Virus record (IMG/VR): IMGVR_UViG_3300042945_001784
Location: 16,808 to 80,807 of that record
Length of the DNA: 64,000 nt
Direction: 5' to 3' (one strand)
Source: a virus
The notes under the pieces were generated by a model. It saw only the letters and a list, made by a program, of their open reading frames with translations, did not search any database and had not been told where the DNA came from. Each line of letters opens with the position of its first letter. Positions within the stretch are counted from its first letter, which is position 1. Positions 8,482 through 63,974 of the stretch are shown piece by piece. Made by a program: the position numbers and the translations under genes.

Positions 8482-8510
8482 TGTATTTTTTAACCTACTT
8501 TAATTTTAAA

Positions 8511-8621
8511 TTACTTTTTCTTTCCGCCGTTCTTAGCTTTACGAGCATTGGCATTACCGCTATTCTGCTTAGCATTTTGCTTAGCAGTTGCAGCGGATTT
8601 TTTGTTCTTTGGTTTAGACAT
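8511..8621 (-). CDS. Small Lys/Asn/Ala-rich basic protein
   Basis: 36 residues from ATG at 8621 (MSKPKNKKSAATAKQNAKQ) to TAA at 8511, almost wholly Lys, Ala, Asn and Gly. Its start overlaps the stop of the larger upstream gene by one base. Its charge suggests nucleic-acid contact or a disordered virion component; no family is recognised. Confidence 0.6.
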   Translation of the reverse strand: MSKPKNKKSAATAKQNAKQNSGNANARKAKNGGKKK

Positions 8622-9931
8622 TAGCGGCTAATTTCCTCCCAATCTAGAGAAGCATGGATGTCTGCACCGCTAACATCAGATGCTGCAATTAAAGTCAGCT
8701 CGTAGGGTGTAGATGTAAAAGGTTCTCTTTCTAATTGGAAAGTAAAAAGAGCTTCCTTAAGAATGTCAACTGGAGTAGATCCTTGGTTAGCGCCAATGGT
8801 ATAACCGCTGGCTAAGATTCGTCCAGTTCCTTGGGTAAATCCTGTACCCGTAATGTTATATTCTACTGCAGAATTAGTTCCTGCACTAACCCACGTTCCG
8901 CCTGTTGTTGTACCACTTGCAACAACTCTCCAGTTATATGTTGCATTGTTTGTAATCCCAATCAATGAAAGAGCTGTCAAAATAACAATGGCATCTAAAC
9001 GATTAGGAGATGTTTTAAGCCGGATTGACGCCAGGGGGTAGTAGGTTCCTGCTGTTGTTAGGTCAACAGGAGTTGTAATTGGAGTACCAATTGCTTGTTG
9101 TACGCCCCTAAGTTCGTAGCCTCCTTCGGAAACAACAGAAGAACAAACTTGTTTTAATGTACTGTTACTTGCAGTTGTTCCTGTGTTTTCAATCTCATAG
9201 CGTAAAGGTAAAGATGCTGTTGTGATATAGGTTGAAGTAATTATATTGGCGTGATGGAAAGAATGGCAGTGAATAAATACACCATTGATAACAAAACCTA
9301 AGCGAACTGTTCCTAAACCAAGCCACTCAATATCCATCCAAAAGATCTGTGCTTTTGTAATATCAAGAGTCAGTCCTGAAAGACCTTCACCATCTAATTT
9401 ATCTACGTTCCAGTTACTCTGGGCTACACGTGTTTCTGTTACGGATCCAGTGACGCTGCTTCTTTCAACAAAAGATAAGGTTGAACCATTTAATTCAACG
9501 TAGATACCATTATCATTTCCAAAGTATCCAACACGTTGACGTAAATTTTGTTTTGCAGGATTGAATACAAAAGTATTTAATACAAGAAGACTTTTACCTG
9601 GTTGGTATGAGAAAACCTTAGTAGTTTCTCGATATACTTTTGATCCTGACGTTGTTGTTACGTTTAAATTAACTAAACCTTCGCTAGTACTGAACGATGT
9701 TGTCCCACCACTTGCTGTATTTATTGCCCACAAACCATTATCGTTATAGCGATGGCTAGAATCAAACAAAGTTAAGGGTTGTGACATCCTTAACCGTCCA
9801 AAAGCATCACTTGCTATTGAACTGCCTCCACCTGATGGAGCTGTTATCGCTACATTTAGTACCTGATCATCAGGATTTAGTACTTTGACAACCTCATAAA
9901 GATTGTCATCTCTTTCAATAACGGTTGCCAT
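8621..9931 (-). CDS. Virion structural protein of the FGRLRxSxP type
   Basis: 436 residues, beta-rich. The N-terminal segment DAFGRLRMSQPLTLFDSSHR is a motif I associate with large virion proteins of many tailed phages, including cyanophages; the rest is Ser/Thr/Gly-rich with short strands (IYVELNGSTLSFVERSS). It is tightly linked to the small genes at 9934 and 8511. A tail or capsid-surface protein is likely; the exact role is not visible. Confidence 0.75.
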   Translation of the reverse strand: MATVIERDDNLYEVVKVLNPDDQVLNVAITAPSGGGSSIASDAFGRLRMSQPLTLFDSSHRYNDNGLWAINTASGGTTSFSTSEGLVNLNVTTTSGSKVYRETTKVFSYQPGKSLLVLNTFVFNPAKQNLRQRVGYFGNDNGIYVELNGSTLSFVERSSVTGSVTETRVAQSNWNVDKLDGEGLSGLTLDITKAQIFWMDIEWLGLGTVRLGFVINGVFIHCHSFHHANIITSTYITTASLPLRYEIENTGTTASNSTLKQVCSSVVSEGGYELRGVQQAIGTPITTPVDLTTAGTYYPLASIRLKTSPNRLDAIVILTALSLIGITNNATYNWRVVASGTTTGGTWVSAGTNSAVEYNITGTGFTQGTGRILASGYTIGANQGSTPVDILKEALFTFQLEREPFTSTPYELTLIAASDVSGADIHASLDWEEISR

Positions 9932-13433: not shown

Positions 13434-14306
13434 ATGACCGTAACTGAAGCGCTACTTTCTGATGCTCAACGTCTTGTGTATGGACGTAGAAGAATTATTG
13501 ATGCTCTTTATCAAGAAGATCCAGATAAATTCAAAGTTCTACAAGCCACTGATATTCAATCTATTTCACTTGAAGATGATCTGGTTTGTTTACAGTTAAC
13601 TGACACCCAACTCTATATAGAGAGGGCAAAAATCCTTAAAAATTTCTGGGAGCACCGCACGCGCACCCCTTCCTACTTTGATTACAAGGTTTGGAGCCAG
13701 GCATTGAGCAGTCGTCCTTGGCAAGGAACACCTGTTGCAGCATTGGATTACGGTCCGTCCCAAGCCATTGATGCGCTGGAGCCTTTGCTGGGACGCCCGC
13801 CCCGGATTCAAACAGACCGTGATGGAGTACAGAAGTTGTACTTTGTCATGGAGAAAGAAGAGATGTGCAGCTGTGAATCATGGAATCAAATGCATGTCCA
13901 CAGGCATGAACTTTCCGATGAGTTCTCTACTTATACCGACATAAAATTTAAGCCCATTTGTAAACATTTACAATGGTGTTCTGCCAACATGATGCTTCAT
14001 GCAATTCGGTTTGAATCCAGGCAGAGCGATAAAGAATACAATCCAAGAATGTGTGTTTACTATTTTGATCATCGTCGCGGTTTGTTACTGTATCGCGTTA
14101 CTTATGACGGCGTAAAAACAGGTGGTCAATGGTTACCCGTTGGTGGTTGGAAAGAAAAAGCTGTCTATGACAGTAACCACATGCCAACCGGAGCTTGCTG
14201 GCAAACCTTTACGGATGCGCTGACCCAAGATCCACCTTTTAAACTTTCACTCTATTCTCATAGCCTGGGTGCATTGATGAACAGCACCCGCGCTAAACAG
14301 TCCTGA
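13434..14306 (+). CDS. Hypothetical protein with SWIM-like CxC...CxH zinc motif
   Basis: 290 residues. At about residues 145-180 the sequence has CSC and then PICKHLQWC, matching the SWIM zinc-finger pattern CxC-xn-CxH. SWIM motifs occur in DNA-binding and recombination-linked proteins. The C-terminal part (GGQWLPVGGWKEKAVYDS) looks beta-rich. A structured leader element precedes it and the Gp157-like gene follows, so a DNA-processing role is plausible but unproven. A virion protein at 42-44 kb carries a similar motif. Confidence 0.75.
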   Translation: MTVTEALLSDAQRLVYGRRRIIDALYQEDPDKFKVLQATDIQSISLEDDLVCLQLTDTQLYIERAKILKNFWEHRTRTPSYFDYKVWSQALSSRPWQGTPVAALDYGPSQAIDALEPLLGRPPRIQTDRDGVQKLYFVMEKEEMCSCESWNQMHVHRHELSDEFSTYTDIKFKPICKHLQWCSANMMLHAIRFESRQSDKEYNPRMCVYYFDHRRGLLLYRVTYDGVKTGGQWLPVGGWKEKAVYDSNHMPTGACWQTFTDALTQDPPFKLSLYSHSLGALMNSTRAKQS

Positions 14307-14330
14307 TTGCACACCACGACATTACTCACC

Positions 14331-14927
14331 ATGGCTGACAAGCTTTCCCTGATCCAAATTGCTGAATCCATCCAGCACATCAGCTTTTTGAAGGATATGC
14401 CTGACATCCCTGAGGATGAGCGGGCCATGCTGGAGCAGCACCTTCACGATCTGGCTTCTCGCCAGGAGTCCAAGTTTGATGCCATCATCGGCATGATTAA
14501 AAAGTGTGATGCTTATATTGAAGCATTACAAACAGAGATGGATGAGATCAAACAAAACCTAGATGCATGGAAAAAGAACCGGGAAAAGATGGTTTCTATT
14601 GTTAAGTTTGCTTATCAACAGAATCTGATTGATAACAAGCCAACTGGTACTAAATATCAAGCTACGATTCGTAGAGTTAAGCCACGTCTTGTAGATAACT
14701 TTGAACACTGGGAGGAGGAAGATAAGACTGAGTTTGGTTTGCGTAAGACCACGACAATAACGCGCATTAAAGACAACACTGTTGTAGATGTAAAGCAAGA
14801 GGATTTACCTGATAAAGATCGGGTGCGTGATGCACTTGCTACAGATGACGGTTCAGCGCCAGCAGCAGCTCAACTTGTTCCTGGATTCTCCTTTGTTTAT
14901 GAGCGTTGTAAAAGGTTAAGTACCTGA
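14331..14927 (+). CDS. Siphovirus Gp157-like coiled-coil protein
   Basis: 198 residues from ATG 14331 (MADKLSLIQ). It has a long central coiled coil (LQTEMDEIKQNLDAWKKN) followed by a small beta-domain and a C-terminal LPDKDRVRDALATDDG...AQLVPGFSF, the arrangement of the Gp157 family (PF05565). Members sit next to SSB, recombinase or nuclease genes in siphophages and are thought to act in DNA metabolism; their activity is not established. It is co-oriented with and close to the SWIM-motif gene. Confidence 0.7.
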   Translation: MADKLSLIQIAESIQHISFLKDMPDIPEDERAMLEQHLHDLASRQESKFDAIIGMIKKCDAYIEALQTEMDEIKQNLDAWKKNREKMVSIVKFAYQQNLIDNKPTGTKYQATIRRVKPRLVDNFEHWEEEDKTEFGLRKTTTITRIKDNTVVDVKQEDLPDKDRVRDALATDDGSAPAAAQLVPGFSFVYERCKRLST

Positions 14928-14969
14928 TCACACTTTTAAGTTCCAACAACAACAACAACAAATTCAACA

Positions 14970-15317
14970 ATGACTCAAGAACACCCGATTACACCGCCCC
15001 CTGAGCTGGTGGAAAAGTGGCTGGAGAACACTTGCTCGCATGACTGCATCGGAGCTTACCCGGCGAACTACGAGCAGCTCATCTGCACCCAAGCCGCCCG
15101 CTGGGGCGCTGATCAGGAGCTGGAGGCGTGCTGTGAGTGGCTTAAAGCCAAAGAGTGGATTCACCACGAATTCAGCGACGAACTCCGCGCCGCCCGTCGC
15201 CCCAAGCCGCCGAGCTTGAAGGAGCAAGCGCTTGCAGTTTTAGACGACGCCTCAGATCGTCTTGATGCTGCTCACGAAAACATCATCCGCCGCGCACTGG
15301 AGCAACTCGATGGCTGA
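14970..15317 (+). CDS. Paralogue 1 of the ITPPPELV / AARWGADQELEACC family
   Basis: 115 residues. It begins HPITPPPELVEKW, then QAARWGADQELEACCEWL, LRAARRPKPPSLKEQALAVL and IIRRALEQLDG. This layout is common in uncharacterised proteins of marine Synechococcus and their phages. Related sequences follow at 16446-17144 (two copies) and 17137-17478. GC content and codon use are clearly higher than in neighbouring genes, pointing to transfer from a host-like source. A run of CAA repeats precedes its ATG. Function unknown. Confidence 0.8.
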   Translation: MTQEHPITPPPELVEKWLENTCSHDCIGAYPANYEQLICTQAARWGADQELEACCEWLKAKEWIHHEFSDELRAARRPKPPSLKEQALAVLDDASDRLDAAHENIIRRALEQLDG

Positions 15318-15831
15318 TTACACAGCAACGCCCAAGCAATGGGCCGAAATAGCGCATTGGTCTGATGAATACGGCTACGCTCCTCAAACCTGCATCCTTG
15401 AACTCCGCGCCAGGGTCAAGACGCTAGAAGATACGGTTCAAAAGCACATTGTCGAAACGAATTCAAACATTGTGGCTTTATTTAGCCGGGTTGAATCGTT
15501 AGAAGCTGCTGAACGCCAAGCATCAAAAGTCCACCAGATCAGCAAACCTCTGAAACTTACTGCAAAGCAACAGGCAGAGTTAAAGGCATTGCTGACGCCC
15601 GATTTTAGGGTTGGCATGACGCCAACTTCTACTTCAAACCAAGTTGGTAATTCGCTGGTGAATCAGGTAGCCCGTGCCATCGGTCGAGACGATGAACCCA
15701 TCAACTGGGAGGAAGAAGCCCGCGCTGCGATCCGCACGGTGGCCTTGTGGCTTAACGAAACTCCCTTTGATCTCTACCCCGGTGATCGCGGCATCATTGT
15801 CAATGCTCTTTATGACCAAGTAAATCAATGA
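15310..15831 (+). CDS. Hypothetical coiled-coil protein of the GC-rich island
   Basis: 173 residues from ATG 15310, overlapping the previous stop by eight bases. It has TPKQWAEIAHWSDEYGYAP at the N-terminus, a coiled coil (LRARVKTLEDTVQKH) and a C-terminal EPINWEEEARAAIRTVALWL helix of the kind found in cyanophage and picocyanobacterial small proteins. The C-terminal motif is often a separate small protein elsewhere, so this may be a fusion. Function unknown. Confidence 0.7.
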   Translation: MADYTATPKQWAEIAHWSDEYGYAPQTCILELRARVKTLEDTVQKHIVETNSNIVALFSRVESLEAAERQASKVHQISKPLKLTAKQQAELKALLTPDFRVGMTPTSTSNQVGNSLVNQVARAIGRDDEPINWEEEARAAIRTVALWLNETPFDLYPGDRGIIVNALYDQVNQ

Positions 15832-16010
15832 CTGACTTCAAATTTGTGCCACTAAACAGCCTTGAGAATCGCCTCGGTGATGCTCTTGGCCTTGCCATTG
15901 CCATGATCCGCGATCCAAGCGCCGTGGACAACAAAGCCATGGCTCAGATCGAGGCGCCATTCAAGGAATGGTGTGATGCTCTCGTTGATGGAGGTCTACT
16001 CAATGACTGA
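15828..16010 (+). CDS. Small hypothetical protein
   Basis: 60 residues starting at the ATGA overlap with the previous gene (MTDFKFVPLNSLENRLG). Helical, with APFKEWCDALVDGGLLND at the end; the stop overlaps the next ATG at 16003. The chain of overlaps supports it as a real gene of the GC-rich island. No family is recognised. Confidence 0.65.
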   Translation: MTDFKFVPLNSLENRLGDALGLAIAMIRDPSAVDNKAMAQIEAPFKEWCDALVDGGLLND

Positions 16011-16242
16011 CACCACCCCACTGAGCCCCGCCGCGCAGGCAGTGCTGGATGCCCTGCACACAGAAAACTCAACGGGTCCAGAGCGGTATTGGGCTCGTGC
16101 CAATGCCGTTGCCGCCCTGCGTGCTGCTGCGGATCAAGTAGTGCCAAAGTTTTGGCATGAGGACAACGACATTTACGGTGAAACAATGCAAGACGTGCGT
16201 CAAAACCTCCTCGCCATCGCCGCCGAGCTTGAAGCCCAGTAG
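16003..16242 (+). CDS. Small protein of the MTDTTPLSPAAQAVLDA type
   Basis: 79 residues from ATG 16003. The opening TPLSPAAQAVLDAL and the ending LLAIAAELEAQ are typical of a small helical protein found repeatedly in picocyanobacterial genomes and cyanophages; its function is unknown. The last 20 bases of this gene (GCCGAGCTTGAAG, then CCCAGTAG) recur at 17367-17386, where they truncate a paralogue of another family. Confidence 0.75.
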   Translation: MTDTTPLSPAAQAVLDALHTENSTGPERYWARANAVAALRAAADQVVPKFWHEDNDIYGETMQDVRQNLLAIAAELEAQ

Positions 16243-16254
16243 TCAACATCACTA

Positions 16255-16428
16255 ATGCTCAAAGACATCACACGCTGTCACGGCACAGGCTGCCCCGCAA
16301 AGCAACATTGCCTCAGACACACTGCACCAATCCCAGACAATGTTCTCCTGTCATGGGCGGCAAACCTCAACTACGAGCGAGCGCACATCTGCGCTTACTA
16401 CATGCCCGCTACGCCCAAGACCCAGTAG
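16255..16428 (+). CDS. Small Cys/His-rich protein
   Basis: 57 residues from ATG 16255. The N-terminal half has RCHGTGCPAKQHCLRH, with Cys and His spaced as in a small zinc knuckle, followed by SWAANLNYERAHICAYY. It lies between two host-like genes in the GC-rich island. A zinc-stabilised fold is inferred; function unknown. Confidence 0.6.
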   Translation: MLKDITRCHGTGCPAKQHCLRHTAPIPDNVLLSWAANLNYERAHICAYYMPATPKTQ

Positions 16429-53040: not shown

Positions 53041-54003
53041 TCACTCCATGACAAGGAGTTTCTGGCGGAAGACACCAGGATTGCGTTGAGCTTGCGAAAG
53101 ATAGCGCCAGGCATTAGCAGGATCACGATCTGCAACAGTGCCAAAATTATCCCAGAAATTCCGAGAATCCATATCTAGTTGAGGGCTTGGCGGAACCGGC
53201 ATACTTGCTCGCTCCAGGTTTGGAGTGTAGTACTCAGGTTCTGCATAAGCTTGTTGATAAGCTTGTTGCCCATCTTGAACTGGGTAAGGACCGTTTTCAC
53301 CAAAGAACTCACAAGTGTAATCAGCAAGTACGTCAGGATCAGTCAAGATCTTTTCGTAAGCTTGATGTTCTTGTGCCAGTTCTTCTAACAGTTGAACAGC
53401 TTCTGATAGTTGCTCATAACGAGCAATCAAAGCATCTTCAACAGTGCAAGCGTAATCGTTAAGAACAGCAGGTGCATCGGCACCAAAGTGGTCAATGACC
53501 TCAAGACTTTGAGGACTTACCCCGTTTGCGAGGAGCTGTTGTGTTGTTATTTCCTGCGATGTTGGGGAATAACTGGGCGAGTAACCCTGGCTGGACGGAT
53601 AAATCGGGGCTGCCGAATTGCTGCTGAATGTTCCGGTCTGTTGGGAACTGAAGCTGGCCGGGTCGATTCCCTGCGTCGGTGCGGACTGTTGACCCTGGAA
53701 CGGGAATTGAACTGGTGAACTCAGGAGCGACACCACCCGATTGAACGCTTCCTTGTACGGGTTCTCCGCTGAAGGTTGGGCTGGCTGGTACGATTGGATA
53801 GGGGCGTACGGGGCTGCCGAAATTTGCGCCTGCATCTGGGGTGCCGGTGCCTGGGCCGGCTGGTAAGGCGCCACCCACTGGCTGGTTGTTGCCACCGGAG
53901 CTTGCGCTGCCGTCTGTTGTGCTACCGGCGCCGCGTAGCTGCTCGGCGGGGTCGAATACTGTTGGGGTACCGATTGGATCGGCGCTGCGGTATCGGCCTG
54001 CAT
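53041..54003 (-). CDS. Scaffold-like protein overlapping the portal gene by 503 bases
   Basis: 320 residues from ATG 54003, which has a good ribosome site (AAAGAGGT, six bases before). Residues 1-167 are Pro/Gln/Ala/Ser-rich and are read in another frame from the portal gene's 3' part (53501-54003). Residues 170-320 are unique and helical (VEDALIARYEQLSEAVQLLE, ELAQEHQAYEKILTDPDV), ending SQAQRNPGVFRQKLLVME. Position between portal and capsid suggests a scaffolding or assembly protein. Confidence 0.75.
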   Translation of the reverse strand: MQADTAAPIQSVPQQYSTPPSSYAAPVAQQTAAQAPVATTSQWVAPYQPAQAPAPQMQAQISAAPYAPIQSYQPAQPSAENPYKEAFNRVVSLLSSPVQFPFQGQQSAPTQGIDPASFSSQQTGTFSSNSAAPIYPSSQGYSPSYSPTSQEITTQQLLANGVSPQSLEVIDHFGADAPAVLNDYACTVEDALIARYEQLSEAVQLLEELAQEHQAYEKILTDPDVLADYTCEFFGENGPYPVQDGQQAYQQAYAEPEYYTPNLERASMPVPPSPQLDMDSRNFWDNFGTVADRDPANAWRYLSQAQRNPGVFRQKLLVME

Positions 54004-55735
54004 AGGTTACCTCTTTCTGGAGACTTTCGAGTGTTCTGTAAAGGAATGGCGTCAGATCAAGACGCGGATCAGCTGCCAGGGGGAGATCTGGGCGCTGGGG
54101 ATGAGGTGTACGCATTTCTTGATTAATGAGATCAAGGAATGATGCATACGCTCGTTGTACTTGACCAACCATCCGGAAAGGATAACCGGAGAGCATCTCT
54201 GCAACTTCGTCATCCGTTTTGGACGGGAACAAGTACTTAAGTGCCTCAATACTATCAACACCCAATTCTTGTAAGTTGCGGGTAAAGATAGATTGATTAA
54301 CTTTATCTTGTGGTGTGTCTTCATAGACAGGACCCATCCAGCGCCAAAGCACTGTGCGGTCACCATCTGGAGCAAGACCGATTACACCATCAGGAATCTC
54401 TTTGGTTTCAAAAGCTTTGTTTAAAGCTTTATCCAACCCTTTCTCATACTTCTCTTTTGCTTTACGGTGTTTTTCTAGTGCTTCATCATCAGCATTTTCC
54501 GGCAATATCGGATATGTTAACCCAGATGCAACTGCTAATGATTTACGGAAGAGCTGCTCTTCCTGATAGATCATCAGTTCAAAGCAACGGCAGATCCCGT
54601 AGGTATAAAGCTGCAGACACTTTTTCTTTGCGGTGGCGCTAACGCGACCATAAGCAGATTTAATTTCGGTAGCAGTAACGTTGGTAATTGAAAGGTCATC
54701 AATACCGCCGAGTGCTAAACGGATCTCAGAACGCAGTTGATCAACATAACGGGATTGATCTGTGCTGATGGCATTAGGTGTAATAAAGCCAACGCGATCT
54801 GTTGGTTCCAGGTTGGCAATCACCCGTGGAACACGGAGGCCGCCACCAGGTAAGCCGATGTAACCAGCTTGCTGGCGCTCTGTCGGATCTTGTTTGAAGG
54901 TCGAGCTGGAGAGAGAAAACTCTGATTGGAATCCAGATTGGCTTGCAATGCTGGGTCGTTGAACTGCACCGTCTTTTGCAGTTTCAACAATGTCGTGTTT
55001 TGGCCGGGATGAAAGGAGTGTTGGATTACCAAAGAACGACAGGTTTGCCCTGATGTTCTTTACCATCTCATCGTGAGCAATGATCTGGTTAGCTAACCAT
55101 TCAAATTCTCCGCTTCCATCAGTACCGAAAGCATCGGGATTGTTGAGAACTTCTACACAAGGAATAAATCCAAGAGTGTTCTCAAGTACTTTGTTATCGT
55201 TAAAGTTAAGTGTTGCCTCCAGTGAATCGAATGTGAGTTCCTGTTCACTGTGAAGTTCGTGAATTTCACTTGGCGTGATACGAAGCCGAACATAACGTTT
55301 ATCAGTAATCAGGCCTACGCCACCAAAACCACGGCTGGATTTAACCTTGTATGCATAGATAATGATGACCTCTTCTAGATCACCATCTGGAGAGTAATAA
55401 GTACGGTAAGCATCTTTATCAAACCAATACAATCTGTAAGTTTTCTTTGTTGGTCTGATATAAAACAGTCCTTTACCGTAAGATAAGAACCGATCCCAAA
55501 TAGAATCTAACCGTGCATCTAAACGATTGAACTTGATAACTTGCTGAATAAAATCAAAACGTTGAGTTCCAAAGTTATCTTGATTGGGATAAAACTCGAC
55601 GCCCTGCCGAATCCCAAACATCTTCATTTGGGAAAGGTGAGCATTGATGAGCATCGTGTCTGCTGTCCCCGTGGCCTCACGGTTAACAACAGCTTTGAGC
55701 ATTCCTTCTAAAACGGATTGGCTCTGGGTGCTCAT
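53501..55735 (-). CDS. Portal protein
   Basis: 744 residues, the usual portal size for short-tailed phages. The core has FIQQVIKFNRLDARLDSIWD, FLSYGKGLFYIRPTKKT, GIDDLSITNVTATEIKSAYG with RVSATAKKKCLQL, and DPRLDLTPFLYRTLESLQKE. The last 168 residues are Gly/Pro/Ser/Thr-rich and share DNA with the scaffold-like gene. It lies between terminase and capsid genes. It would form the ring through which DNA is packed. Confidence 0.82.
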   Translation of the reverse strand: MSTQSQSVLEGMLKAVVNREATGTADTMLINAHLSQMKMFGIRQGVEFYPNQDNFGTQRFDFIQQVIKFNRLDARLDSIWDRFLSYGKGLFYIRPTKKTYRLYWFDKDAYRTYYSPDGDLEEVIIIYAYKVKSSRGFGGVGLITDKRYVRLRITPSEIHELHSEQELTFDSLEATLNFNDNKVLENTLGFIPCVEVLNNPDAFGTDGSGEFEWLANQIIAHDEMVKNIRANLSFFGNPTLLSSRPKHDIVETAKDGAVQRPSIASQSGFQSEFSLSSSTFKQDPTERQQAGYIGLPGGGLRVPRVIANLEPTDRVGFITPNAISTDQSRYVDQLRSEIRLALGGIDDLSITNVTATEIKSAYGRVSATAKKKCLQLYTYGICRCFELMIYQEEQLFRKSLAVASGLTYPILPENADDEALEKHRKAKEKYEKGLDKALNKAFETKEIPDGVIGLAPDGDRTVLWRWMGPVYEDTPQDKVNQSIFTRNLQELGVDSIEALKYLFPSKTDDEVAEMLSGYPFRMVGQVQRAYASFLDLINQEMRTPHPQRPDLPLAADPRLDLTPFLYRTLESLQKEVTYAGRYRSADPIGTPTVFDPAEQLRGAGSTTDGSASSGGNNQPVGGALPAGPGTGTPDAGANFGSPVRPYPIVPASPTFSGEPVQGSVQSGGVAPEFTSSIPVPGSTVRTDAGNRPGQLQFPTDRNIQQQFGSPDLSVQPGLLAQLFPNIAGNNNTTAPRKRGKSSKS

Positions 55736-55977: not shown

Positions 55978-57501
55978 TTAATATTCCAACTCCAACTTAC
56001 CGCGAGTCATTAGGCCATTGCAAAGCCAGACCATGGCATCAACACAATCGTCATGGGAACTAACACCAAAATTAATGATCTCATCATGAAGCGCTTGAAA
56101 CTTGCGGAATTTATTAAAGAAGATCTTACGCTGCTCAAACAAGCCCATGATGCCCCTAAACCGTGCAAGTTTGTCGCCACGGAATCCTTTGACTGGATGC
56201 CAGATCAAGTTGTAAAGACCATGTTCCATCTGGCAGATCCGTTTGAAGTCAGCTTCTAGAGATGCTTGGTAGGCCACGGCTTCTGACCAAATATCAACAT
56301 TAGATCCTGTAGGAAAATATTTCTCACCATCTTTATAAACAATTCCCCATTCATACATCATCTCCATCATCGCTTCTAATTTTTCCAGGTTACCCATTAA
56401 GCGGAGACGCTTGGTATCAATGATGTAGATCTTATCCCCAACCCTGCCGCCTAGTACAAATACACTATAGTCATTGCGTTCACGCACGCCAGCAGAAAGG
56501 TCAACACCAACACCCAGCGTGTCAAACTCCGTTGGAATTTTGCTCTTGACAAGAAGATCAGGTGAGATAGATAACTCACTAGTTTGAACAATTTGATTCT
56601 GATACTGAAAACTAAAGCTGATTGGAGCCTGGCGTTTACGATCTTGGAGATACTCTAGTGACCACATCTCAGGCCAGTAGGATTTTTCATCGCCATTCTC
56701 ATCTACCGTAATAGCAGATTGAACAATCTGTACCCAGTCATTAGCTGGAGTAAAGGTTGTGTTATGAATATCGTCATGACGGAATCGAGTACCTAGGCAG
56801 ATTGCACGAGCACCTTCAAACATGGTAGGAACAATAACTGAGTTCCAGTTATCTTCCATAGCAGCACGAATATCTCTGTTTTTAATATCGTCAGCACTCT
56901 TAATAGCGTCATCAATAATACAAAGGTGCGAACGCTTTGAGGTCACAGCACCTTTAAGACCTGCACAACAAACGGTAAATTCTTCTTCACCAGTTGATCT
57001 AATTCCTGCAAACTTCCAATCAATACTCCAGTATTCATTGGAGTTAATCCCTTTGGCAATTTTAACCATTGGGAAGATTTCTTTATAGTGTTTATTCTCT
57101 TCAATGATGCGTTTAATGGCTGCACTCTTAGGGCGTGCAACATCAACAGTGTAAGAAATATAAAGGATTTTTAACGGTTTCTTATGCAGTGCATGAACGC
57201 CAATAGACCATGCAGTAAATAAACCAAGCACAGTGCTTTTTGCTGAGCCCCGTGGCGCCAGGATGTCTACGTTGGGGCCAGCAATGCCCATCAAACATTC
57301 AGAGTTATCGCCTGTGCAAAGATGCTCATGCCATAAACGCATGTGTGTAGCTGGTGGTTTTTCACCAACTACATCACAGAAATAAGAGAAATCAACGCGT
57401 GCCCGTTCAACATCAATATTGCTAGTCTTTTTAACAACCTGTTGTTTTGCACCAGCGCGGGCAGTGCGCCTATAAACAGCGTAGAGGGATGTGTTTGCCA
57501 T
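55978..57501 (-). CDS. terL: Terminase large subunit
   Basis: 507 residues. Walker A APRGSAKST (about 81), Walker B HLCIIDDAI (about 200) with a coupling segment (GTRFRHDD), and a C-terminal nuclease with GVGVDLSAGVRERNDYSVFV (about 330) and SSHDDCVDAMVW (about 490). It packs DNA into the head and cuts concatemers. It follows the TerS candidate and precedes the portal, in the normal order. Confidence 0.95.
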   Translation of the reverse strand: MANTSLYAVYRRTARAGAKQQVVKKTSNIDVERARVDFSYFCDVVGEKPPATHMRLWHEHLCTGDNSECLMGIAGPNVDILAPRGSAKSTVLGLFTAWSIGVHALHKKPLKILYISYTVDVARPKSAAIKRIIEENKHYKEIFPMVKIAKGINSNEYWSIDWKFAGIRSTGEEEFTVCCAGLKGAVTSKRSHLCIIDDAIKSADDIKNRDIRAAMEDNWNSVIVPTMFEGARAICLGTRFRHDDIHNTTFTPANDWVQIVQSAITVDENGDEKSYWPEMWSLEYLQDRKRQAPISFSFQYQNQIVQTSELSISPDLLVKSKIPTEFDTLGVGVDLSAGVRERNDYSVFVLGGRVGDKIYIIDTKRLRLMGNLEKLEAMMEMMYEWGIVYKDGEKYFPTGSNVDIWSEAVAYQASLEADFKRICQMEHGLYNLIWHPVKGFRGDKLARFRGIMGLFEQRKIFFNKFRKFQALHDEIINFGVSSHDDCVDAMVWLCNGLMTRGKLELEY

Positions 57502-57524: not shown

Positions 57525-58010
57525 TCAGGATTCTTCTGCCAGGATTTTTGTCCACACTGCCATTACAGCATCTTGGAGTGGACCTTCAATAGGGTCATCT
57601 TTGAAGATCAGTACAATCTCACGCAGAGCACGATCAGCACCAGCAAGGATTAATCCCTGCTTGTCACCAACATAACGCTCATCTTGAATCTGCTTAATAG
57701 CGCCACGTAGTTCTTTTTGCAGCATAGCAATACGAGCAGTACCGTTATCTTGTTTCACCATGCCCAAGTCAATAGCTTGACGCAGCTTTTCTACATCTTC
57801 TCGCATGTTATCAATTTCAATCTCCAGAATTTGCTGAAGATTTCTTTTTTTAAATGTTGATTGTTGCCACTCATCACATTCCACAATGTTACCTGTAAAC
57901 CCAAGGAATCGGGCATACAGGTACATCTGAATGGGGGAACTATGTTTTTTGCAAAATGTAAGGAACGCTTCTTTCTCGTTAGGACTTAAAGTTTCTAACC
58001 AATCAATCAC
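57525..58010 (-). CDS. Terminase small-subunit candidate
   Basis: 161 residues, directly upstream of terL with 23 bases between. LSPNEKEAFLTFCKKHSSPI with QMYLYARFLGF may form a helix-turn-helix-type N-terminus; the middle is a coiled coil (LEIEIDNMREDVEKLRQAID, ARIAMLQKELRGAIKQIQDE). DNA-binding N-terminus plus oligomerising coil is the TerS plan. Assignment rests on position and fold pattern. Confidence 0.65.
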   Translation of the reverse strand: MIDWLETLSPNEKEAFLTFCKKHSSPIQMYLYARFLGFTGNIVECDEWQQSTFKKRNLQQILEIEIDNMREDVEKLRQAIDLGMVKQDNGTARIAMLQKELRGAIKQIQDERYVGDKQGLILAGADRALREIVLIFKDDPIEGPLQDAVMAVWTKILAEES

Positions 58011-59623
58011 GAACGGAATGCAGCACGTGCTTGACTATAATCCTTCTCCTCTCTGTAACGACGATACAGCTCTTGCTGCAGTTCAGTTTCACGTTGTTCA
58101 CGTGCTTGGCGACCAATGGTTTCACGCGTTTCAGTTCCACGTGTCTGCTCAAGTCCAGTTTCACCTGTGTAGCGTTCACGCTGTGTTGCACGCTCCTGTT
58201 CTCCAGTCAAACCAATCTGCCGCTCTTGGCCAGCCAAGAGTTCTGATTGGGTAGCGCGTTGTTCACGTCCGGTTGTTTGAATGCCCAGACGTTCTTCTGT
58301 GCCACGTAAACCAATCTGTCTTTCTTCTCCGGCTTGGCGTTCAAACTGTGTTAAACGCTCCTGAGTTCCAGCAGTCTCCATACCACGTCGTTCTTCTGTA
58401 CCACGAAGACCAATCTGACGTTCTTCACCAACCTGGCGCTCAGCTTGTGTACGGCGTTCTTCTGTACCAGTTAAACCAATCTGACGCTCTTGCCCAGCCA
58501 ACAGTTCACGCTGTGTGGAACGTTGTTGTTCACCGGTAGTGCTAATTCCTAGACGTTCTTGTTCGCCACGGGTAACAGCAGTTAACCGTTCTTGAGTACC
58601 GGTTAAACCAATCTGCCGTTCTTGACCGGCTAAAAGTTCAGACTGTGTTGCACGCTGTTCACGACCAGTTGTTTGAATACCTAAACGTTCTTGTTCTCCG
58701 CGAACCCGTGTAAGACCAGTTTCACCGGCAAACCGTTCTGTTTGCGTTCTCCTTTCTTCAGCACCGGTTAAACCGATTTGCCGTTCTTGACCTGCAAGTA
58801 ATTGCCCTTGTGTAGCGCGTTGCTGTTCTCCTGTTGCGCTAATTCCTAAACGTTCTTGCTCTCCACGAGTACCAATTAAAACTCCTTCACCAGCAAAACG
58901 CTGACGTTGAGTTTCTTGTTCACCAGCAATTTGTTGGCCCAGAGTTAAACGTGATTCCCGACCGGTTAAACCAATCTGACGTTCCTGTCCAGCAAGTAAT
59001 TGCTGTTGCGTAGCACGTTGCTGTTCACCAGTAGTAGTAATTCCAAGACGCTCTTGCTCACCGCGTGTAAGCGTAGTTAAGCGTTCTTGTTGACCAGTCA
59101 GGCCGATCTGTCGTTCCTGGCCAGCAAGTAATGCTTCTTGTGTAGCTCTTGTTTGTTCTCCGGTTAAACCAATCTGACGCTCTTGGCCAGCAAGAAGTTG
59201 TCCCTGTGTTGCTCTTTGTTCTGCTCCAGTCAGCCCAATCTGACGCTCTTGGCCAGCTAACAGTTCACGTTGTGTAGCACGTTGTTGTGCGCCTGTTAAA
59301 TCAATCTGACGTTCAGCACTTTGAGAAGCTAAACGTTGGGTTTCAATTTGTCCGCGAGCAGATTCTGTTGCTGCAAAACGTGTGGCACCAGCAGACTGTG
59401 CAGCTGCATACTTAGTGGCTTCTGATTGTGATTGAACTCCTTGAAGATTAAATTGTCCAATCTTTTCGTTTGATGCACTTTGAACATTCAGCTCATTTAA
59501 ACGTGCTTGATTATTAATGGCATTAGCTGTTTCTGCTTGGTTATAACCAAGGATGTCCATAATGGCATTGGACACACCTTGAATATCACCAAGATCAATA
59601 AGGTTGACGTTTTGCTTTGCCAT
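58007..59623 (-). CDS. Virion-block protein with about 35 uninterrupted 11-residue repeats
   Basis: 538 residues. From about residue 110 to 495 the sequence breaks into 11-residue units with no insertion, alternating types such as QRATQxxLLAG and QERQIGLTGxx, or ERLGIxTTGEQ. Gly sits at fixed places in most units. Hendecad repeats form long, slightly right-handed coiled coils, so a rod of roughly 55-60 nm is possible if fully helical. The end (RRYREEKDYSQARAAFRS) overlaps the TerS candidate by four bases. Role unknown; fibre, ruler or internal protein are options. Confidence 0.8.
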   Translation of the reverse strand: MAKQNVNLIDLGDIQGVSNAIMDILGYNQAETANAINNQARLNELNVQSASNEKIGQFNLQGVQSQSEATKYAAAQSAGATRFAATESARGQIETQRLASQSAERQIDLTGAQQRATQRELLAGQERQIGLTGAEQRATQGQLLAGQERQIGLTGEQTRATQEALLAGQERQIGLTGQQERLTTLTRGEQERLGITTTGEQQRATQQQLLAGQERQIGLTGRESRLTLGQQIAGEQETQRQRFAGEGVLIGTRGEQERLGISATGEQQRATQGQLLAGQERQIGLTGAEERRTQTERFAGETGLTRVRGEQERLGIQTTGREQRATQSELLAGQERQIGLTGTQERLTAVTRGEQERLGISTTGEQQRSTQRELLAGQERQIGLTGTEERRTQAERQVGEERQIGLRGTEERRGMETAGTQERLTQFERQAGEERQIGLRGTEERLGIQTTGREQRATQSELLAGQERQIGLTGEQERATQRERYTGETGLEQTRGTETRETIGRQAREQRETELQQELYRRYREEKDYSQARAAFRS

Positions 59624-59679: not shown

Positions 59680-60258
59680 TCAAGTACGCAACCAAATACC
59701 TGCGGTGCCACGTTTTAAATCGCCAAAAGCACGTTGCCTTTCTGCTGTAGCAGAAGCTGCTAAACCAGCTTGCTGTTGCATAGACAGATTACGCGCAGCC
59801 TGTGCTGTTGGAGACAGTTCTTTCATGCGGAATGCTTCCATTTGACGGTTTAACTCTTGGTTGCGCATGTACTCTGTAAAAGGAAGCGAAGCTGCACCAA
59901 AAGCTGTAGCAGTACCAAGACCTAAAACGTTTTGTTTTAATTCAGTTTCTAACAGTCCAGGCTGCAATGCTTTTTGTAACTTGACATACTGGTCAATATC
60001 TAAATCAGTTGGAGATAAAGTTCCGGCGCCAGAGGTAGAAGGAGGTGAAGGAATCTGTTGAGTAAGTCCGCTTCCATACTGCTTTTGAAGTTCCTCTAAG
60101 GCAAGGTCAACTGTTTTACCAGTATTAAAATCAATGCCTTTGTATTTACCAACCTTGGACCACAGATCTTGAACGTTGAAGCCGCTAGGTTTAAAAGTAG
60201 TGCTACCAAAATAATTTGGAGTGCTTGGTTTGTAGAAACTACTAAAGTCCTGAGGCAT
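59680..60258 (-). CDS. Virion-block protein
   Basis: 192 residues. MPQDFSSFYKPSTPNYFGST has a SerPro-rich start; then LDIDQYVKLQKALQPGLLET and GTATAFGAASLPFTEYMRNQ, and a Gln/Ala helix (RNLSMQQQAGLAASATAERQ). Similar in composition to neighbouring internal-protein candidates. It lies 15 bases after the upstream gene. Function unknown. Confidence 0.65.
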   Translation of the reverse strand: MPQDFSSFYKPSTPNYFGSTTFKPSGFNVQDLWSKVGKYKGIDFNTGKTVDLALEELQKQYGSGLTQQIPSPPSTSGAGTLSPTDLDIDQYVKLQKALQPGLLETELKQNVLGLGTATAFGAASLPFTEYMRNQELNRQMEAFRMKELSPTAQAARNLSMQQQAGLAASATAERQRAFGDLKRGTAGIWLRT

Positions 60259-60273
60259 GACCAGCCCCTCCTA

Positions 60274-61080
60274 TCAGAAGTAACGGTACTGGGTAGAACC
60301 AGCTTGACCAATGTTGCTCATGAAACCTTCTGCCATCCGCTGAGCACCAAGCTGACCTTGCTGACGCATTGCAGCATCTGTAGCTAAGGCTGTTGCAAGC
60401 TGAGCAGCTTTAGCGCCACGAATCAGGTCAGCTTCTTTAGAACGCTGCTGATAAGCTTCTTGGTACGGAGCATAACGCAAAGCATTCTGCAAGCTCTGCA
60501 TATACTGCTGTTGTTCAAACCGTGCTTGACTCTGAATAGCACCAAGAGGATCGGCATAACCTGCTGCACCTGGAGGACCAAACTCACTGAGGTTAGAAGG
60601 AGTCATCTGGCCTGCACCATAACCAGGAACATCAGGCAGTTGCGGAGTGCTGGCACCAGTAACCTGTCCGCCAAGACCAACAGCTTTAGAAATCGGGGTA
60701 ACAGCCTTACCTGCAAGATTTGCGCCGCCAGCAGCAAGAGCAGGAACAGCTAAGCCGCCACCAATTAGTGCAGCGCCACCTAAACCTTTAGCAAGAGCAG
60801 CTTTGCCCATAACTTGCTGGCCAATAGGATTCAGAGTACTGGAACCGCCACGGGCAAATAACTGAGATGCTTTATAAGCTTCTGGAGCAATCTTTGCACC
60901 AAATGCAGTACCAGCAAGACGCGTACCGATAGCACTGGCAGCACCAGGAAGAACAGCACCTAAACCAGTGCCAAGTAAACCACCGCCAATTGTTTGGCCA
61001 ATATCGCCACCACTGCGTTTGTAAGCTTCTGCTGCGCCTAATCCACCCCCAAATAAAGCGCTAATCAGTAATGGGTTCAT
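60274..61080 (-). CDS. Gly/Ala-rich hydrophobic virion protein candidate
   Basis: 268 residues. LISALFGGGLGAAEAYKRSG, IGQTIGGGLLGTGLGAVLPG and GGAALIGGGLAVPALAAGGA form glycine-zipper-like hydrophobic stretches, which can insert in membranes. The C-terminal third is a Gln/Ala helix (MRQQGQLGAQRMAEGFMSNI) ending GSTQYRYF. Likely an internal, possibly ejected protein. Role inferred. Confidence 0.65.
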   Translation of the reverse strand: MNPLLISALFGGGLGAAEAYKRSGGDIGQTIGGGLLGTGLGAVLPGAASAIGTRLAGTAFGAKIAPEAYKASQLFARGGSSTLNPIGQQVMGKAALAKGLGGAALIGGGLAVPALAAGGANLAGKAVTPISKAVGLGGQVTGASTPQLPDVPGYGAGQMTPSNLSEFGPPGAAGYADPLGAIQSQARFEQQQYMQSLQNALRYAPYQEAYQQRSKEADLIRGAKAAQLATALATDAAMRQQGQLGAQRMAEGFMSNIGQAGSTQYRYF

Positions 61081-61121
61081 GAAATTAAATCCTCTTAATT
61101 GTTATTTTAGAAGAACTATGC

Positions 61122-61658
61122 TTAACCAAAAAGACTACCGCCAGCACCACCAAGTCTTGCACCTAAACTGGCTCCAGCGGGACCGCCAGCAATGAACCCA
61201 ATGCCTGCTCCAGCAAGTGTTCCAATGGCTTCACCAATGCCACGACTACCACCAGTCTGTGTGGTTGTTTGTTCAGGAGTACCTAAATACATTGTGTAAC
61301 CTTTACCACGAGCTGCAGTGCCTACATTAGATCCATAACCACGTTCTTCTCTAGAAGAAGAAGGAAGACCGGAAGCACTGTTTTGTTTCTTATAACCAAG
61401 TGCTTTATCTAAAGCATTTATTGCTGCACCAAGCCAACTTGGTTGACCAGAACCAGAACCAGAGGCTAGTGCGCCAGTTCCACTTAAACCTGGCAAATTT
61501 AAAGAGCCACCCCAGTCAACACCAGGGGTCTGCCCCCAGTCGGTACCGCCTCCACCGCCGCCTCTACCTGCAGATCCCCAATCATATCCACCGATACTAG
61601 GTGCTGCACCTTTAAAAATATTATCTGTTTTAACGTAATTGTCGTAAAGTCCAGCCAT
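61122..61658 (-). CDS. Gly-rich virion protein candidate
   Basis: 178 residues from ATG 61658 (MAGLYDNYVKTDN), two bases from the upstream stop. Gly/Ser/Asp/Trp-rich (GSAGRGGGGGGTDWGQTPGV), with a C-terminal glycine-zipper (IGTLAGAGIGFIAGGPAGAS). The C-terminus is like membrane-inserting segments of other internal candidates. Function unknown. Confidence 0.65.
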   Translation of the reverse strand: MAGLYDNYVKTDNIFKGAAPSIGGYDWGSAGRGGGGGGTDWGQTPGVDWGGSLNLPGLSGTGALASGSGSGQPSWLGAAINALDKALGYKKQNSASGLPSSSREERGYGSNVGTAARGKGYTMYLGTPEQTTTQTGGSRGIGEAIGTLAGAGIGFIAGGPAGASLGARLGGAGGSLFG

Positions 61659-61660
61659 TA

Positions 61661-62869
61661 CTAATTCATGTAAGAAGTTAATTCTTGCCAACTAGAAACC
61701 GGTGGTTGGCCCAATGCTTCAGTTGCTGATTGGAAAGAACCGTATTTATGCTTTAAGTATTCTACCGGTTGTTCTTTCTTTAGACGGTTCTCTGCTTGTT
61801 TATTGAAGACGGCTTGAGAAGCTTTCTTTGCTAAATAACCAGCGCCAAGACCAGCAGCCACGAGGCCAGCAGCTACAGGTAATTTAGGTGCACCGATAGG
61901 TTCTTTCTGGCTAACTTCTTGGAGAAGATCTTGTAAATAATTAACACCACCTTGCGTTCCTTTCTTAATTGGAATACCTGCTTTTTCCACAGCAAGCCGG
62001 CGGCTAACTTGTTTGACTGCATCCTCCATTTCTGGAGTCCTTGTCATTACTGTTTGGGCATAACGCATTTTCTCTGGCAATGCTTTTTGCAGTGCTCCTG
62101 TAGTTCCAATAGCAGTTGCAGCACCAATAGCTGTGGATGCCGTAACAGGGAAACCAAAATATTGGATTTCAGGTTCATTTAATCCTTTTGCTGTGCCACG
62201 AATAATACCAAGAGGGCCAACAAAAGATTGCGTTTCAGGATCGACTTTTCCAAATCCATCTGGTTTCATCTGTTTATAACGCAGATACTGTTGATACGTT
62301 GGGTATGCAACTTCAGGACGTTCTTCTTTAAACGTTTGATACGGAAGAGGATCACCACGACGACCCGTAAAATAACGCAGTACAGATTCAGCAGCAGGGT
62401 TGGCAGAGGTACGACCTGTTGGATCTTCTTCTTTGGAAACTGGCAAGATACTTTTGAAGCCAGCGGGACGAGCACCTTGTAGTGGGTTGCCTACAGCACC
62501 GCCTAAAGCAGCAATAGCAAACGGAGTGCTGCGACCTAGTAGATCTGTAGTAAGGGGATCAAGTCCCATCTTCTCACCAGCAGCGCGTCCCACGTTGCGG
62601 CTAACAGCAAGAGCGTGGTTTAAAAACCAGTAGGTTCCGCGTGAGGCATCTGTTAAAACATCAAGGGCGCCAGTGGCTGCAGCCAGTGGAACATTACCTT
62701 CCTTTGCATATTGGATTGCTTCTTTTATACCACCATAAACAGCACGAGGTCCAGTTGCGCTACGACCTTGCTTTAAACCTTGTTCTACATAGTTACTAAA
62801 TTCACTGCCAAATTTTCCAGCAGCGGCAACACTATTAGAGAGGTAATTAGGAATATCTGCAAAACGCAT
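61661..62869 (-). CDS. Internal virion protein candidate
   Basis: 402 residues. It opens MRFADIPNYLSNSVAAAGKF; then Ala/Gly-rich helices (VPLAAATGALDVLTDASRG, LLGRSTPFAIAALGGAVGNP), a charged middle (LPYQTFKEERPEVAYPTYQQ), and LVAAGLGAGYLAKKASQAVF near the end. Alternating hydrophobic and charged blocks are like ejection proteins. It overlaps the next gene by one base. Confidence 0.65.
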   Translation of the reverse strand: MRFADIPNYLSNSVAAAGKFGSEFSNYVEQGLKQGRSATGPRAVYGGIKEAIQYAKEGNVPLAAATGALDVLTDASRGTYWFLNHALAVSRNVGRAAGEKMGLDPLTTDLLGRSTPFAIAALGGAVGNPLQGARPAGFKSILPVSKEEDPTGRTSANPAAESVLRYFTGRRGDPLPYQTFKEERPEVAYPTYQQYLRYKQMKPDGFGKVDPETQSFVGPLGIIRGTAKGLNEPEIQYFGFPVTASTAIGAATAIGTTGALQKALPEKMRYAQTVMTRTPEMEDAVKQVSRRLAVEKAGIPIKKGTQGGVNYLQDLLQEVSQKEPIGAPKLPVAAGLVAAGLGAGYLAKKASQAVFNKQAENRLKKEQPVEYLKHKYGSFQSATEALGQPPVSSWQELTSYMN

Positions 62870-63555
62870 TAGAAGTACCGAGTTGTAGGAGTACTTAACA
62901 TTTGATTTGCAATCTCAAAGGGACTAGGAGTACCGCCTTGAGAAATGTGATAAATGTAGCTCGGGAACTTATAGTTCCTGGCGTACGTTAATTCTAAACG
63001 ACGTTGATGATCCATTGCTTCAGGACCACCTGCAACAATTGCTTGTGGTGTAGCAGCTAACTCAGCACCTGTAACATCTGCTTGTATACCAGTCTGAGTA
63101 TTACGTCCACCACCAAATCCTTCTGGTAAAACAGAACTTGTTACTGCTTTAGTTAATGGATCAGTAACAGCCATTCCACCAACAAGACCAACGCCTAACT
63201 TACCGGCACCAGCAGCAAAACCTGCTAAACCCTGTGCAGCAGACGGTGGAATACCCATACCTGCCATTCGTTGAGCCATTGCAGGTTCAATCTGAGAAAC
63301 GCCGGGTGCTACCTGTTTTAAGCCCGCCATAACACCACGTTCAACAGGACCACTGAGAACACCAAGTGTTGCAGCACGCATCAAGCTTTCAGGAAGAGGA
63401 GGTCCCTCCTGGCCCATGACTCGCGGTAACCCCTGTTCAAGTGCCAGGCTTATTGCACCGGTACGAGCAGCTTCTTTAGCAAACGCTTTGCCGCCAGCTG
63501 GAGCAACGATGGGGAGCAGGCGTTGTCCTGCTAAACGGAGAGCGGTTCCAATCAT
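62869..63555 (-). CDS. Internal virion protein candidate with shared C-terminal tail
   Basis: 228 residues. Ala/Gly/Pro-rich helices (LRLAGQRLLPIVAPAGGKAF, AQGLAGFAAGAGKLGVGLVG) are followed by ELTYARNYKFPSYIYHISQG and a tail TPSPFEIANQMLSTPTTRYF. The tail closely resembles those of the GH104-like and M23-like proteins at 46.6-48 kb. It is probably an internal or ejected virion protein. Confidence 0.65.
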   Translation of the reverse strand: MIGTALRLAGQRLLPIVAPAGGKAFAKEAARTGAISLALEQGLPRVMGQEGPPLPESLMRAATLGVLSGPVERGVMAGLKQVAPGVSQIEPAMAQRMAGMGIPPSAAQGLAGFAAGAGKLGVGLVGGMAVTDPLTKAVTSSVLPEGFGGGRNTQTGIQADVTGAELAATPQAIVAGGPEAMDHQRRLELTYARNYKFPSYIYHISQGGTPSPFEIANQMLSTPTTRYF

Positions 63556-63974
63556 GAGATGCTAGTACCTTCTGAGCCTGGGAATTCTTTTCCTTTTTCA
63601 GCTTTTTGCTGAATTAATGCAGTTAATCCACCTGGATCAACTCGATCTTCTGGTCCTAAAACAGGACTGCGATCATAGTTTGCCAAGAAAGAACTCAGAT
63701 AATCTGGTCCACTAATAGAAAACGGATCTTTACCAGTGTTAGGAATAGTTTGATTTGTTCCGGGAGCATTTGTTAAATCAAGTTTTTCATCAAATGCTCC
63801 GTACTGTTTAGCAGGAAATACAGGGTTTGTATCACGTAGGTTGGCTAAGTACTTGTTAAGAAACGCTTTTTCTCCTGCCATTTGCTGATCAACAAATGGA
63901 CCCAAGGAGTCACCTGCATTATCTTTAGATGCAGCTTTAACTCTATTGAGATAAGGGATTTGCGTTTTAAACAC
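63552..63974 (-). CDS. Virion-block protein
   Basis: 140 residues: FKTQIPYLNRVKAASKDNAG, FLNKYLANLRDTNPVFPAKQ, DYLSSFLANYDRSPVLGPED. Mixed helical, with Asp/Pro-rich linkers. It overlaps the next gene by four bases. No family is recognised. Confidence 0.6.
   Translation of the reverse strand: MFKTQIPYLNRVKAASKDNAGDSLGPFVDQQMAGEKAFLNKYLANLRDTNPVFPAKQYGAFDEKLDLTNAPGTNQTIPNTGKDPFSISGPDYLSSFLANYDRSPVLGPEDRVDPGGLTALIQQKAEKGKEFPGSEGTSIS

Follow-up and report, generated by a model that had tools for sequence, protein, structure and literature searches.

What does a phage gain from a protein built as one long, gapless run of 11-residue units, and which property of such a run is held by selection, its length or its helical phase? 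The question is raised by a gene next to the terminase genes of a virus known from metagenomic sequence, IMG/VR record IMGVR_UViG_3300042945_001784. This record has 80,807 bases, and the window, i.e. the whole stretch of 64,000 nucleotides that was analysed, comprises bases 16808-80807 of it.

The rod gene and its repeat array

The gene and its parts are, in window coordinates:

58007..59623 (-), gene for the 11-residue-repeat rod protein, 538 aa, defined by its open reading frame, self-identity and orthologs
59450..59623 (-), residues 1-58, the N-terminal segment, which bears a type-A module (GDIQGVSNAIMDILGYNQAET...NEKIGQF)
59318..59449 (-), four divergent 11-residue units, residues 59-102, AlphaFold2 pLDDT ~81-88
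58097..59317 (-), residues 103-509, the main array of 37 units, each exactly 11 residues long
58010..58081 (-), the C-terminal 24 residues (LQQELYRRYREEKDYSQARAAFRS), a putative docking peptide whose length and phase are conserved

Self-identity of the rod protein is highest at lags divisible by 11 (0.27 at 22, 0.29 at 44 and 0.31 at 66), while the maximum in 500 shuffles over lags 5 to 79 was 0.168. An earlier note on this DNA had claimed that the protein can be cut into 11-residue units without gaps, and this is borne out: residues 103-509 give 37 units with 0 indels, and the four units before them (NLQGVQSQSEA, TKYAAAQSAGA, TRFAATESARG and QIETQRLASQS) keep the register of the main array. 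The unit types are also as the note described them, A (QRATQxxLLAG), B (QERQIGLTGxx) and C (ERLGIxTTGEQ), and so is the in-register Gly, which occupies position 9 in 22/38 units and position 11 in 14/38. The array is made of Q, G, E, R, T, L and A, with few Lys and nearly without aromatics; a Trp/Phe marker was not found in the units, since the window array has 0 Trp and Phe is rare.

When like units are compared in pairs, 70% of synonymous sites and 17% of nonsynonymous sites are changed, the latter figure being pushed down by the picking of pairs for peptide likeness. We reject recent DNA duplication as the only source of the array, as most synonymous sites differ between like units. The units are accordingly old and kept at the protein level, and, judged from the substitutions, their peptides are under purifying selection. 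A near relative from a different metagenome (L002) has the same array with one extra unit, and this agreement makes an assembly artefact of the window contig unlikely.

Gene neighbourhood

The rod gene lies in a block of packaging and structural genes:

59680..63974 (-), upstream block of six ORFs, mostly Gly/Ala-rich, without confident family match
58007..58010 (-), GTGA overlap of the rod-gene stop and the GTG start of the next gene, seen in the sequence and in nearly all relatives
57525..58010 (-), 161-aa ORF in the small-terminase position, assigned by position only
55978..57501 (-), TerL, terminase large subunit, 507 aa (phrog_38, E 7e-77)
53501..55735 (-), portal-like virion structural protein (phrog_20475)

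Past the portal-like gene come a long overlapping ORF and a major head protein. The GTGA overlap makes translational coupling of the rod gene and the 161-aa gene possible. As to the virion-block setting beside the terminase that the earlier note had proposed, the structural gene block, TerL and the portal-like gene are in place, and from this position we infer that the rod is a virion-block protein. Matches to fibre/tail PHROGs lie at ~38-42 kb, away from the rod gene. In the ORFs and the genome scanned there was no match to a tail-tube PHROG or PF06199, in a tested family set that is not exhaustive, and no long-tail genes were found. The upstream block could be an ejection-protein module, a reading that we offer as a possibility.

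Two further observations concern the neighbouring ORFs. In the ORF immediately upstream, 59680-60258 (-), near relatives are 63-67% identical, against 97-99% for TerL, which suggests a fast-evolving module. The 320-aa ORF at 53041-54003 (-) shares ~500 nt, in another frame, with the 3' end of the portal-like gene 53501-55735 (-). Synechococcus phage S-EIV1 has this overlap too (13538-15841 and 15288-16265 of L025, 41% identical), of which the GenBank annotation covers only the tail of ORF 15288-16265; the overlapping ORF is probably a conserved, scaffold-like gene.

Relatives of the rod gene

Orthologs were gathered in two ways, via the rod protein and via the 161-aa gene that starts inside the rod stop codon. 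The rod-protein search gave 23 loci and the 161-aa search 36, the two sets sharing some contigs, and an ortholog stood directly before the 161-aa gene in 36/36. A profile search of IMG/VR with the 161-aa protein returned at least 557 matching stretches, of which 80 loci were kept; the ortholog is in place at 79 of these and the remaining contig is too short. One contig (L017/L042) has no ATG in frame and was left unscored. The lineage is common, with at least 557 IMG/VR stretches carrying the linked gene, and a minimal version is present in the cultured S-EIV1. This phage is the nearest annotated one to the window (TerL 64% identical), and its ortholog AHV82216 (KJ410740), an 82-aa hypothetical protein, lies just before the 161-aa gene. 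The searches found no ortholog in other annotated phages; one of them may suffer from low-complexity masking, and matches at E ~8 are chance.

Across these relatives the 161-aa protein is strongly conserved and the rod variable. The rod N-terminus changes fast, and relatives other than the window carry extra low-complexity tails there, rich in P/A, G or K/Q. In L076/L079 the common C-terminal form is nested in a clade with an alternative C-terminal form of similar length, a pattern that suggests exchange of the C-terminal peptide. Within genome_contigs only L141 and L142 carry the rod gene; both come from the 'Bacteroidetes' MAG IN_BCD_1 and are probably phage contigs binned with it.

Phase is kept and length is free

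The distance from the N-terminal module to the C-terminus falls into one class modulo 11 in 90/91 scorable proteins, over 43 distinct distances. Two module types occur at the N-terminus, and with strict patterns one modulo-11 class holds 56/57 type-B and 19/19 type-A proteins, the type-B distances spanning 57 to 772 residues. Looser patterns print 88/91, and two rows (L130/L136) re-anchored by eye make this 90/91; they were rejected as phase exceptions since the loosened pattern had hit the second R of RRT and both are in phase by eye. The sole real exception, L012, has one residue absent from one unit. A naive probability for such counts assumes that the relatives are independent and should not be taken at face value. 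As a control, the distance from start codon to module in type B fills all 11 modulo classes. The other end is equally constant: the C-terminus lies exactly 24 aa past the anchor in 42/42 anchor-bearing proteins of the first set, and in the larger one 97/103 have the anchor R at -28. Variable unit lengths in relatives, which the earlier note had named as evidence against its proposal, were looked for, and unit length proved constant (90/91). These data support selection on helical phase, as far as sequence comparison can speak to it.

The number of units behaves differently. Among 64 complete proteins it ranges from 2 to 70 with a median of 12, counted from the module, a count that gives the window rod 38, and it differs among contigs whose next 1.3-2 kb are 97-99.9% identical. 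Where the next 1.6-2 kb are 99.9% identical there are 20 vs 13 units, and further pairs have 59 vs 65 (99.8%), 22 vs 23 (99.3%) and 15 vs 12 (98.8%). Identical 161-aa proteins accompany rods of 40, 59 and 65 units, and where TerL is 97-99% identical to that of the window, arrays of 4 or 8 units occur, against 37 in the window. Repeat collapse in single contigs may affect pairs such as L081/L083. The selection on length that the earlier note had read into the array does not agree with these numbers, and because unit number varies between near-identical phages, a ruler under length selection is contradicted. Taken across the relatives, rod length is freely changed by evolution and phase almost never. 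The family is a natural experiment that separates the selections on a repeat rod, with phase kept (one exception in 91) and length free.

Predicted structure

AlphaFold2, run as a monomer prediction, gives the window rod as a near-continuous helix with mean pLDDT 63.8, best at the N-terminal module and the C-terminus and dropping to 40-70 in much of the array; for a 283-aa relative (L134) it gives a near-continuous helix at pLDDT 73.9. The rod protein is thus predicted to be an elongated alpha-helical rod. Counting 1.5 A for each residue of the helical part, a straight helix would measure ~120 nm in the longest relative (990 aa) and ~14 nm in a short one (117 aa). Of the right-handed hendecad coiled coil in the earlier note, the predicted helix and the strict 11-residue register stand, while its classical form is not supported, since the units lack a single hydrophobic face: across 898 distinct units the one-face (98.2-degree) hydrophobicity amplitude is near zero (0.03), whereas the three hendecads of phiX174 H reach 0.33.

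Other folds were considered. A two-seam helical barrel is attractive, and the units do show a two-face pattern (component 0.143), which is however non-significant (permutation p 0.19). A beta-solenoid, suggested by a Fourier peak at 163.6 degrees, was rejected; an 11/3 helix has its second harmonic at the same angle, and AlphaFold2 returned helix only. Pfam, PDB and fold searches with the rod protein gave no match, and neither sequence nor fold searches found homology to a known virion or ejection protein. There is no transmembrane segment in the rod protein, and family and fold searches recognised no receptor-binding or trimerisation domain. The Pro-rich N-terminus of 8/34 type-B relatives weakly matches phrog_13568, from which no function is gained, and the 292-aa neighbour in S-EIV1 with a similar Pro-rich start is unrelated to the rod.

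Proposed function

We tentatively favour the hypothesis that the rod is a phase-locked spacer in the virion of a short-tailed phage, belonging somewhat more likely to the internal ejection (genome-delivery) apparatus than to an outer fibre. In such a spacer the C-terminal peptide of constant length would probably dock the rod to the particle or an assembly partner, the 11-residue units of three turns each would set its length, and the N-terminal module would form its variable end. Units would be gained or lost in whole 33-bp steps, and selection would hold the helical phase, i.e. the orientation of the faces from end to end, while accepting nearly any unit number. Phase would matter if the faces must stay aligned along the whole rod, for which a bundle or tube of parallel, in-phase rods is an example. 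Recombination between repeats gives 33-bp steps anyway, and this may account for part of the phase constancy. Against the favoured reading stand the lack of homology to known virion or ejection proteins, the lack of a transmembrane segment, the non-significant two-face pattern, which a helical barrel would need, and lengths of 14-120 nm, ill suited to a conduit with a single envelope to cross. The virion role is drawn from synteny, and delivery is preferred to an outer fibre, a weak step, because fibre-like genes lie elsewhere and because short-tailed phages need delivery proteins, no others of which were recognised here; docking and oligomerisation, like virion location and the delivery role, are what we infer from these data. 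If the rod is a delivery conduit, a short-tailed phage would tune its delivery reach by gain and loss of 33-bp units.

Doubtful, and still the best of the alternatives, is an outer fibre or whisker whose C-terminus docks on capsid or tail and whose variable N-terminus is an exposed tip, with length left to drift. Prophage collagen-like fibres vary by whole repeats in the same kind of evolution (PMC3368898), the fast-changing N-terminus with its low-complexity tips would suit a tip, and rods of ~120 nm fit outside the capsid more easily than inside. The fibre/tail PHROG matches sit elsewhere, however, and the rod has no recognised receptor-binding or trimerisation domain, its tip often being a mere low-complexity tail.

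We consider it unlikely that the rod is a non-virion assembly or packaging factor working with the 161-aa protein in the small-terminase position. The rod gene overlaps or adjoins the 161-aa gene at every complete locus, which is in favour of this, but the two products differ in conservation, the 161-aa protein being strongly conserved and the rod variable. A change of C-terminal variant within one 161-aa clade (L076/L079) argues, weakly, against the 161-aa protein as docking partner.

A bolder form of the preferred spacer, which we regard as improbable, is that rods lie side by side and in phase as a genome-delivery tube, its length evolving in 1.65-nm quanta independently of the capsid. If true, an abundant cyanophage lineage would make a tail-like conduit of freely evolvable length from a single repeat gene.

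That the rod fixes some dimension of the particle as a molecular ruler or tape measure, with selection on its length, is very unlikely: tape-measure proteins with a variable number of gapless 11-residue repeats are known (PMC3271669), but near-identical phages have 13 vs 20 (99.9%) or 59 vs 65 (99.8%) units, 40, 59 and 65 units occur with identical 161-aa proteins, the units lack a Trp/Phe marker, and a tail-tube family was not found in the ORFs and genome scanned.

Group 3 LEA proteins have an 11-residue period, and the earlier note had drawn the parallel. An LEA-like or otherwise disordered protein of cellular action and without structural role would share this period, the polar composition and the low AlphaFold2 confidence (40-70 in much of the array), and is hardly tenable given a composition that differs and is poor in Lys, no Pfam LEA match, a place in phage structural synteny and a strict phase between two conserved ends that disorder would not lead one to expect.

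Comparison with known systems

S-EIV1 is counted among the short-tailed cyanophages (PMC7156551, PMC9382816). Like the rod, its AHV82216 stands just before the 161-aa gene, and it is 40% identical over 42-55 C-terminal residues; unlike the rod, it scores 0 units and has about two divergent hendecad-like stretches, a minimal form. Two short ORFs upstream of this ortholog (8483-8662 and 8666-8827 of L025) resemble its N-terminus and are small tandem paralogs. The S-EIV1 TerL (L025 10081-12621, 846 aa) has a large insertion relative to the 507-aa TerL of the window, whose ends look intein-like (CLVGDTMVL...NGFNVLN-C) and which contains an HNH-like ORF in another frame; in L008 and L016 the best TerL match spans just 85% of the query, so a similar insertion is possible there.

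The icosahedral phiX174 delivers its DNA through a helical tube of the H protein, whose hendecads line the lumen with Q/N/R (PMC7354561). The 11/3 helices and Q/R-rich polar units of this DNA pilot are like the rod, whereas H has three hendecads followed by heptads (PMC7354561), and no sequence homology between the two was found. Ejection proteins of the T7 gp15 / P22 gp20 type, from short-tailed phages, parallel the rod in being fast-evolving and size-variable (PMC8954989), with no homology to it found, and they are not known as quantised repeat arrays.

In prophage collagen-like tail fibres with PCoil domains rod length varies by multiples of 3 (collagen) or 7 (coiled coil) residues (PMC3368898). 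This whole-repeat change is like that of the rod, while collagen triplets or heptads and defined PfN/PfC domains set these fibres apart (PMC3368898). Tape-measure proteins share with the rod 11-residue units in gapless arrays of variable number (PMC3271669). They belong to long-tailed phages and bear Trp/Phe markers (PMC3271669), whereas neither marker nor tail-tube family was found for the rod, and unlike theirs, its unit number varies between near-identical phages. Quantised, length-variable phage rods and fibres (PMC3368898) and tape-measure 11-residue units (PMC3271669) were thus already known; new are the rod family itself, its near-absolute phase lock measured in many relatives, and the finding that phase and length are uncoupled.
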